Assembly: GCF_000682695.1 (NCBI RefSeq)
Contig: NZ_AWFG01000019.1
Coordinates: 124,001 to 188,000, forward strand
Source of the DNA: Hyphomonas chukchiensis
GTDB lineage: Bacteria > Pseudomonadota > Alphaproteobacteria > Caulobacterales > Hyphomonadaceae
Length of the DNA: 64,000 nucleotides
Direction of reading: 5' to 3'
A program made the position numbers and the translations under genes. Below the pieces are notes generated by a model that saw nothing but the letters and a program-made list of their open reading frames with translations, had not been told where the DNA came from and did no database searches. Shown one piece after another: positions 47,822 through 49,342 of this stretch; position 1 is the first letter of the stretch, and every line of letters begins with the position of its first letter.

Positions 47822-48238
47822 ATGACTGATGCTCTTAAGAGTACTGCGCGGGATAGTGTGGTCATCGAACTTGCGAGCGAGATTGTATCTGCTTTCGTGC
47901 GGAACAACTCTGTTTCGGCAGCCGAACTGCCAGATCTGATCCGAAGTGTTCATGCCTCGCTGTCTGCACTGGGCACGCCAGATGCGGACCAGAGCCGCCA
48001 GAAACCGGCCGTTTCGGTCAAGCGCTCCCTCGGTGAGGATTTCCTCGTCTGCCTTGAGGACGGGAAGAAGTTCAAGTCGCTGAAGCGCCACCTGCGGACC
48101 AAGTATGACATGTCGCCCGATGAATATCGGGAAAAATGGAACCTCCCCCCTGACTATCCCATGGTCGCGCCGGGCTATTCCAAGCATCGTTCAATGCTGG
48201 CCAAAAAGATGGGCCTGGGTAAAGGCGAGAAAGTCTAG
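47822..48238 (+). CDS. mucR: MucR/Ros-family zinc-finger regulator
   Basis: This 138-residue regulator has the Ros/MucR finger in its C-terminal half: FLVCLEDGKKFKSLKRHLRTKYDMSPDEYREKWNLPPDYPMVAPGYSKHRS (read as consecutive motifs). The first zinc ligand is the Cys of CLED, and the position of the second Cys in Ros is Asp, as in several MucR homologues. ATG 47822 with SD GGGGAG was chosen over GTG 47804. MucR proteins bind AT-rich, TA-step DNA and control cell-cycle, surface and virulence genes. The upstream 100 bp is unusually AT-rich (ATTTTATTATTTACTATTAG), suiting autoregulation. Confidence 0.92.
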   Translation: MTDALKSTARDSVVIELASEIVSAFVRNNSVSAAELPDLIRSVHASLSALGTPDADQSRQKPAVSVKRSLGEDFLVCLEDGKKFKSLKRHLRTKYDMSPDEYREKWNLPPDYPMVAPGYSKHRSMLAKKMGLGKGEKV

Positions 48239-48315
48239 TTGTTGGTTGCGAATACTGTTCGTTACGGTGTCGCAACGAAATAAATTTGTAAGACTGGTTA
48301 ACAAATCCTGTAGTT

Positions 48316-48364
48316 GACTCTTGATCTGCGACTCCACTCGCGCGATAGGTGATTCTGTCGAATC
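48316..48364. promoter_or_regulatory. Cluster of four GANTC (CcrM-type) sites upstream of the PAS gene
   Basis: GACTC at 48316-48320, GACTC at 48330-48334, GATTC at 48351-48355 and GAATC at 48360-48364 lie within 49 bp and end 19 bp before the ATG at 48384. GANTC is the target of the alphaproteobacterial cell-cycle methylase CcrM, and clusters in promoters are typical of GcrA/CcrM control. The last two sites are the arms of a palindrome. Confidence 0.55.
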
Positions 48365-48368
48365 ACCT
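48347..48368 (+). promoter_or_regulatory. Perfect 9-bp stem hairpin/palindrome before the PAS gene
   Basis: AGGTGATTC (48347-48355), a 4-nt loop TGTC and GAATCACCT (48360-48368) pair perfectly. No T-run follows (TTGGGGG), so it is a poor terminator for mucR. It lies 15 bp before the PAS gene start and next to its G-rich RBS. It could be an operator, or an RNA hairpin near the ribosome site. Confidence 0.5.
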
Positions 48369-48383
48369 TGGGGGTGGCCCACG

Positions 48384-48875
48384 ATGTCTAAGAAACCTGT
48401 ATTCCAGGGCGTAACGATCGCCCAGCAAGCCTTGATAAATTACTGGAAACAGCTGCGCGACGAAGGCGGCTGCGTCCGGCGCGAGGCAATCGATCCCGGC
48501 GCGCTCCGCAGCATGCTGGCCAGTATTTCCATCGTCCAGTTTGACGAGTCAGGCGATGGTCGCTTCCGGATCGCCGGCTCACGCCTTCGAGACATTTTCG
48601 GCATGGAGGCGCGCGGGCGCCGGGTTGCCGATGTCATCGGCGAGTATGGCGATGCTTTCGCGCTCGGCCTGTCAGTCGCGCTTGAACGGCGTGCGCCAGT
48701 TGGCGGCGTCATCGAGCAGGCGAACGGCATGCATGCCTGGCTGCGTTTGCCGCTGCTGGACTCAAACGGTCAGCTCACCATGGTGCTCTGCCATGACGAG
48801 ATGCTGCCCAGCCGCCGTCTGATCACGCCGAACAGCGACTCCGTCCACACGTCTTCCCCGCGCGCGGCCGCCTGA
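48384..48875 (+). CDS. PAS-domain protein (PAS_5 family)
   Basis: This 163-residue protein is essentially one PAS domain (about residues 10-140). QALINYWKQLRDEGGCVRREAIDP and DGRFRIAGSRLRDIFGMEARGRRVADVI fit the PAS_5 family, common in Alphaproteobacteria and without an attached output domain. I chose ATG 48384, preceded by GGGGGTGG, over a start at 48321 that would pass through the GANTC cluster. The ligand and partner are unknown. Confidence 0.85.
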   Translation: MSKKPVFQGVTIAQQALINYWKQLRDEGGCVRREAIDPGALRSMLASISIVQFDESGDGRFRIAGSRLRDIFGMEARGRRVADVIGEYGDAFALGLSVALERRAPVGGVIEQANGMHAWLRLPLLDSNGQLTMVLCHDEMLPSRRLITPNSDSVHTSSPRAAA

Positions 48876-48976: not shown

Positions 48977-49342
48977 ATGGCGAAATTCGATCCCCAGAAA
49001 GACGAGGACCGCGCCTATCTGGCGGCGGCACTGACGGCCTATGCGCTGGGCCTGAAGCTTGAGGCCGTGCTGTCGCCAGAACGCGGCAGGCCGATAGAGG
49101 CCCGCGCCCGACACATCGCGATGTATCTCACACATGTGGCGCTGGGCATGAGCCTCGCCCGGGTGGCGCGTGCCTTTGACCGTGACCGTTCAACGGTCGC
49201 CTACGCCTGCCACCTCGTGGAAGACAAACGCGATGATGCGGACTTCGATAACTGGCTCGATCAGCTGTCGCTGGGCCTGTCGAGTGTTGTGCTGCTGGGC
49301 ATTGCGCCGCGACTGGCCTGTTCCAATTCGCTCAGGCGGTGA
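48977..49342 (+). CDS. Solo DnaA domain IV-like helix-turn-helix protein
   Basis: This 121-residue protein consists mostly of one helix-turn-helix domain. ARHIAMYLTHVALGMSLARVARAFDRDRSTVAYAC (read as two motifs) closely follows DnaA domain IV, including the DRSTVxxAC signature equivalent to DHTTVLHAC, which contacts the DnaA box. The AAA+ ATPase domain is absent. A GTG at 48974 is also possible; SD AAGGAGA precedes both. It could compete for DnaA boxes or be a transcription regulator. Confidence 0.8.
   Translation: MAKFDPQKDEDRAYLAAALTAYALGLKLEAVLSPERGRPIEARARHIAMYLTHVALGMSLARVARAFDRDRSTVAYACHLVEDKRDDADFDNWLDQLSLGLSSVVLLGIAPRLACSNSLRR

Follow-up and report, generated by a model that had tools for sequence, protein, structure and literature searches.

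The window, that is, the whole 64-kb stretch of Hyphomonas chukchiensis DNA that was analysed, contains a mucR-type regulator gene that is followed on the same strand by a gene for a small PAS-domain protein, and four GANTC sites are packed into 49 bp of the region between them. The sequence-only reading had described these four sites as a cluster before the ATG at 48384, and all of them were located, starting at 48316, 48330, 48351 and 48360. The features of the locus, including a core promoter whose elements are predicted, are as follows:

47822 to 48238, forward strand: mucR-type regulator gene (Pfam ROS_MUCR, 3e-49), directly 5' of the PAS gene
48316 to 48320, strand not applicable: GANTC site 1, GACTC, immediately 5' of the predicted -35
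48321 to 48326, forward strand: predicted -35, TTGATC; CTTGAT is present in 40/40 Hyphomonas loci
48330 to 48334, strand not applicable: GANTC site 2, GACTC, within the predicted -35/-10 spacer
48344 to 48349, forward strand: predicted -10, GATAGG; ATAG-N-TGANTC is present in 40/40 Hyphomonas loci
48348 to 48367, strand not applicable: inverted repeat GGTGATTC-TGTC-GAATCACC, which contains GANTC sites 3 and 4
48351 to 48355, strand not applicable: GANTC site 3, GATTC, with the predicted -10 on one side and the predicted start on the other
48360 to 48364, strand not applicable: GANTC site 4, GAATC, just past the predicted start; its other strand reads TGATTCG, the published extended motif
48384 to 48875, forward strand: MopJ-like single PAS_5-domain protein of 163 aa that ends in AA (Pfam PAS_5, 7.3e-16)

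PAS_5 is the sole Pfam domain found in the 163-aa protein. Its only NCBIfam match is the MopJ model NF051868 (9.4e-17; 61.3 bits, below the equivalog cut-off of 200), and the same model is likewise the only match of all 28 aligned family members. MopJ of C. crescentus (CCNA_00999), described in 2015, is a single PAS_5 protein of 165 residues with two terminal alanines, a ClpXP class I signal; it rises when ClpXP is blocked and is found in S phase (PMC4432633). MopJ is further characterised by its localisation at the pole together with DivJ/DivL and by its support of CtrA. The Hyphomonas protein resembles MopJ as a lone PAS_5 protein of similar length with an AA end and a GANTC-bearing promoter, but unlike MopJ equivalogs it lies under the NCBIfam cut-off and is therefore filed as a relative rather than an equivalog. 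Judged by sequence and gene order, the gene is a syntenic relative of mopJ, a designation that makes no claim of equal function. The sequence-only reading had taken it for a signalling protein not previously named, a view that has to be given up, since the gene goes with the MopJ described in 2015 (PMC4432633).

Relatives of the locus were collected at two levels. The family search gave matches in 101 of 105 genomes, 40 of 42 within the genus; the genomes without a match are two of the same genus and two others of the family. Eight named loci, each of which shares its upstream region with one of the 40 Hyphomonas loci, are left out of the counts; the closest named locus is that of Hyphomonas oceanitis SCH89, with 94% identity of the PAS protein. 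The order search gave matches in 101 of 160 genomes; outside the family, 43 of them had E <1e-14, and 40 of these were used (all but G122, G142 and G153). These 40 belong to three families, here the sister family f2 (n=19), f3 (n=9) and f4 (n=12), the last two being more distant. The family f2 is probably Caulobacteraceae, as suggested by the six of its 19 proteins that were scanned, all of which pass the NCBI MopJ cut-off; its counts omit the genus g11, in which matches were weak or absent. A script set each start codon to the one closest to the aligned start, a choice that may be wrong in distant loci. For the parsimony tree, 39 distinct Hyphomonas loci were used, L013 being omitted there as a repeat of L012 and kept in the other counts.

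The gene arrangement is widely retained. Of the 101 family loci, all but L051 have a mucR gene 5' of the PAS gene in the same orientation, as do 12/12 loci of f4 and 5/9 of f3; in f2 the end of mucR lies within 700 bp upstream in 17/19 loci, and the remaining two have the gene at a greater distance, again upstream and in the same orientation. In C. crescentus, mucR2 is presumably CCNA_00998. Two terminal alanines are present in 91/101 family and 19/19 f2 proteins, and in 0/9 and 0/12 proteins of f3 and f4. The characteristics of C. crescentus mopJ itself are those given in PMC4432633, and the promoter layout was compared through the f2 loci: those sampled, in which the MopJ cut-off was passed in 6/6 proteins tested, have mucR upstream and a GANTC in the predicted spacer, as in the window. 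As a separate observation, positions 48977-49342 of the window encode a small protein bearing the C-terminal DNA-binding domain of DnaA (Pfam Bac_DnaA_C, 7.5e-13), and in 64 of the 101 family loci tblastn gives a match to this protein close to the mopJ relative.

The background of one GANTC per 256 bp assumed in the sequence-only reading is too generous, as the density in the window is one per 610 bp. The 64 kb hold 105 GANTC, compared to a mean of 282 after dinucleotide shuffling, and since the window is this poor in the motif, the cluster is rarer than had been supposed. At the real density, a Poisson model predicts 0.006 clusters of four sites in 49 bp for the window and 0.38 for the 3.86-Mb genome; the figure for the window becomes 0.12 in a Markov simulation that takes no account of how scarce GANTC is. 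On these figures, a single cluster of this kind in a whole genome is no great surprise, and the case rests on where the cluster lies and on its conservation. A genome-wide ranking of GANTC clusters had also been proposed. In the 725,703 bases scanned (19% of this genome, with 1,144 GANTC), no second set of four sites within 100 bp was found besides the array in the window, which leaves the array without an equally tight four-site rival in the scanned fraction and does not amount to an exact genome rank. The next-tightest group of four spans 118 bp (L181:10532-10650) at the start of a reading frame, presumably that of a ribonuclease HII, judging by eye; a tighter three-site group of 20 bp is present elsewhere in the same 19%.

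Loss of the sites in close relatives had been named as an observation that would speak against a role for them. Instead, at least one upstream GANTC is present in 101 of 101 family loci, at least three are present in 84 and at least four in 72. The proposed alignment of orthologous promoters showed that the last 100 bp hold three or four GANTC in every one of the 40 Hyphomonas promoters (four in 37, three in 3). The other 61 family loci have none (7), one (19), two (7), three (10) or four (18) in the same interval; in f2 there are three (2 loci), four (14) or five (3), in f3 none (1), one (2) or two (6), and in f4 none (4), one (2), two (3), four (2) or six (1). When the 16 palindromic pentamers are ranked by frequency in the last 100 bp, GANTC comes first in all five groups, with 39.25 per kb in Hyphomonas (pentamer median 1.75), 22.13 in the rest of the family, 40.53 in f2, 15.56 in f3 and 18.33 in f4. 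Within the coding part it ranks fifth in Hyphomonas (4.74 per kb), fourteenth in the rest of the family, in f2 and in f3, and fifteenth in f4; between 600 and 170 bp upstream, which is mostly mucR, it ranks fourteenth in Hyphomonas (1.40 per kb) and ninth in the rest of the family.

The position of the sites is retained along with their number. A GANTC follows 5-9 nt past CTTG in 29/40 Hyphomonas, 36/61 other family, 19/19 f2, 3/12 f4 and 0/9 f3 loci, and the 15 control words occur at this position in a mean of 0.3 to 1.0 loci per group (maxima 2 to 8). The three-site core formed by sites 2 to 4 is matched in 29/40 Hyphomonas, 12/61 other family and 11/19 f2 loci, and in none of the 12 f4 and nine f3 loci. 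Sites 2 to 4 are spaced by 21 and 9 bp in Hyphomonas, versus 22 and 10 bp in several f2 promoters, and Hyphomonas has site 1 5' of the -35, whereas most f2 loci instead have a site about 10 bp before the ATG. The spacer site is missing in 11 of the 40 Hyphomonas loci; a GATTC overlapping the -35 is found there instead, and 10 of these 11 still have four sites in total.

The variable base of GANTC allows selection on the motif to be separated from general constraint on the region. Over the 28 distinct Hyphomonas promoters that have site 2, parsimony places four changes at N and none at the fixed bases. The corresponding figure over all 39 rows, 11 of which lack the site, is seven changes at N against G1 A2 T2 C0, and the four changes in the rows with the site are the figure relied on. 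At site 3, N changed three times and the four fixed bases not at all among the 39 distinct promoters. Site 1 (G3 A1 N1 T1 C0), kept in most promoters and lost in a few, is uninformative because its N hardly varies, and site 4, with no change in any of its five columns, cannot separate selection on GANTC from other constraint. Mean changes per column amount to 4.77 in 48245-48309 versus 1.08 in the 49-bp array. Since the eight fixed bases of sites 2 and 3 stayed unchanged while N varied, selection is, as read from this substitution pattern, acting on GANTC itself.

A simple scan of the array region for the sigma70 consensus returned no promoter, and the -35 and -10 are therefore assigned from their conservation and their spacing of 17 nt. 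The transcription start is predicted near 48356, in which case all four GANTC would fall between -40 and +40. GATA followed by GTGANTC can also be seen in many aligned f2 promoters. Only two of the four sites match the extended motif YGAKTCK published in PMC7987155, namely 48351 and, on the other strand, 48360. About 20 bp 5' of the predicted -35, a GTTAA at 48297-48301 is kept in 36/40 Hyphomonas loci; TTAA is the CtrA half site as published (PMC4287350). Separately, a dyad of the kind CGGAATGAAATATTCCG or CGAAATGAAATATTTCG was noticed by eye about 115 bp 5' of the PAS ATG in some Hyphomonas loci (L017:1384-1400). Both of its sides vary between species, which hints at a protein site or the mucR terminator; the window has this dyad in degraded form.

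Absence of ccrM or gcrA had likewise been put forward as an argument against methylation control, and it does not apply, as the genome has both gcrA and a ccrM-type gene. There is one GcrA match and one RAMA match, the protein of the latter also having an N6_N4_Mtase domain. Both proteins lie above the Pfam cut-offs; in NCBIfam the GcrA model is the best match of the one and the CcrM model that of the other, each under its equivalog cut-off (218 of 280 and 612 of 830 bits, respectively). The ccrM-type gene and a neighbouring gene that resembles mutY are arranged tail to tail (L112:2181-4303). For C. crescentus, the mopJ promoter is described as bound by GcrA, dependent on GcrA and marked with m6A at GANTC (PMC4432633). 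In Caulobacter, a GANTC between -10 and -35 accompanies activation at 40-60 min; of 96 GANTC-bearing cell-cycle starts that were mapped, 11 have two or more sites in the 50 bp upstream (PMC4287350). Two juxtaposed sites are reported for mipZ and three for the CCNA_00697 probe (PMC3667746). The Hyphomonas locus thus resembles the GcrA/CcrM promoters ctrA P1, mipZ and podJ (PMC3667746) in its core-promoter GANTC and in the presence of gcrA and ccrM in the genome, and differs from them in having four GANTC in 49 bp. A GcrA ChIP-seq dataset exists for H. neptunium (S3 and S5 Data of PMC7200025).

Taken with these precedents, the array very probably belongs to a promoter that is methylated by CcrM, driven by GcrA and active in S phase, in front of the Hyphomonas mopJ relative. 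By analogy with Caulobacter, the four GANTC would be methylated by CcrM at their adenines towards the end of the cycle. Methylated sites would favour GcrA, which acts with sigma70 RNA polymerase and would help to open a promoter with weak predicted elements (TTGATC and GATAGG, 17 nt apart). S-phase production of the MopJ-like protein would follow; the protein would help CtrA to return, and ClpXP would remove it via its C-terminal AA. It is also possible, if rather doubtful, that selection acts on how many sites there are: the promoter of mopJ and its relatives would then act as a multi-site methylation reader with about four GANTC around its core, in partly interchangeable positions, and would respond to the replication fork more steeply or later than a single site. 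Four is the commonest GANTC count both in Hyphomonas (37/40) and in f2 (14/19).

The inverted repeat that holds sites 3 and 4 suggests a different reading, in which it serves as the operator of another DNA-binding protein or as a leader RNA hairpin and the GANTC are incidental. At up to three mismatches, the repeat is found at a single place in the genome, matched there on both strands. Its 8-bp arms are perfect in 34/40 Hyphomonas loci, its right arm is fully invariant in the Hyphomonas rows, and a leader RNA containing the whole repeat would fold as a 9-bp stem. However, the GANTC pair of sites 3 and 4 is kept in 40/40 loci, and parsimony places three changes at 48353 and two at 48349 in the left arm, with no corresponding change at the paired positions 48362 and 48366. 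Each change at 48353 preserves GANTC (GATTC to GAATC or GAGTC). The fold z-score is only -1.53, the predicted start lies inside the repeat, so that the RNA would hold half of it, and sites 1 and 2 lie outside it altogether. The perfect palindrome was rejected as the primary selected unit on account of the uncompensated arm changes, and the RNA hairpin on account of the weak fold signal and the predicted start inside the repeat. An operator or hairpin with incidental GANTC is accordingly improbable. Of the palindrome emphasised in the sequence-only reading, the arrangement of sites 3 and 4 as an inverted repeat stands, and its role as such is weakened by left-arm changes that are unmatched in the right arm. 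Since the palindrome breaks without compensation, its symmetry is seen as secondary and probably results from two GANTC that face each other and have conserved flanks, while the unchanged right arm may still reflect another protein that binds the repeat.

It is more improbable again that MucR or another protein shields the sites from methylation, which would make the array a persistently unmethylated repressor region rather than a GcrA activator site. In its favour, mucR is the neighbouring gene, the GTTAA upstream is conserved in 36/40 loci, and in Caulobacter and Sinorhizobium certain GANTC are protected from methylation by MucR (PMC5172544). The locus shares a mucR-type gene and GANTC sites with the hypomethylated promoters described in that article; unlike those promoters, its sites look like activator sites, and there is no sign of shielding at mopJ in the main text, where the name has 0 occurrences (PMC5172544). 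Furthermore, the C. crescentus mopJ promoter has m6A and is GcrA-bound (PMC4432633). Chance clustering combined with ordinary promoter conservation among close relatives, with which the scarcely changing N of sites 1 and 4 (no discrimination on their own) and a single four-in-49 cluster per genome, not far above the Poisson value of 0.38, would agree, is scarcely credible and was rejected on the N-only turnover at sites 2 and 3, the enrichment of GANTC over the 15 other palindromic pentamers in five groups and the standing of the array as the sole tight four-site cluster in the scanned 19%, to which the different fourth site in the 11 loci without a spacer site can be added.

The methylation-timed GcrA/CcrM promoter is thus the preferred reading, and several points weigh against it: the protein scores well under the MopJ equivalog cut-off, YGAKTCK is matched by sites 3 and 4 alone, the consensus scan gave no promoter, regulatory wiring can move between relatives, as in Brevundimonas, whose GcrA and CcrM targets largely differ from those of Caulobacter (PMC7987155), both the array and the AA tail weaken in the more distant families f3 and f4, and 26 of the 61 loci in other genera of the family have one GANTC or none in the last 100 bp. 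No earlier description of this promoter in Hyphomonas was found in the literature searched, which included article text of PMC4432633, PMC7200025, PMC12700997, PMC7987155 and PMC4287350, and the locus is probably a new, unusually dense example of a known methylation-timed switch. GcrA/CcrM control of mopJ is likely to extend from Caulobacter to Hyphomonas, where the turnover of the N base alone places the methylation motif under selection. GcrA regulons are reported to be rewired even among close relatives (PMC7987155), which makes a target that two families have kept useful as a core member, and the dense array offers a clean place to ask whether several sites sharpen cell-cycle timing.
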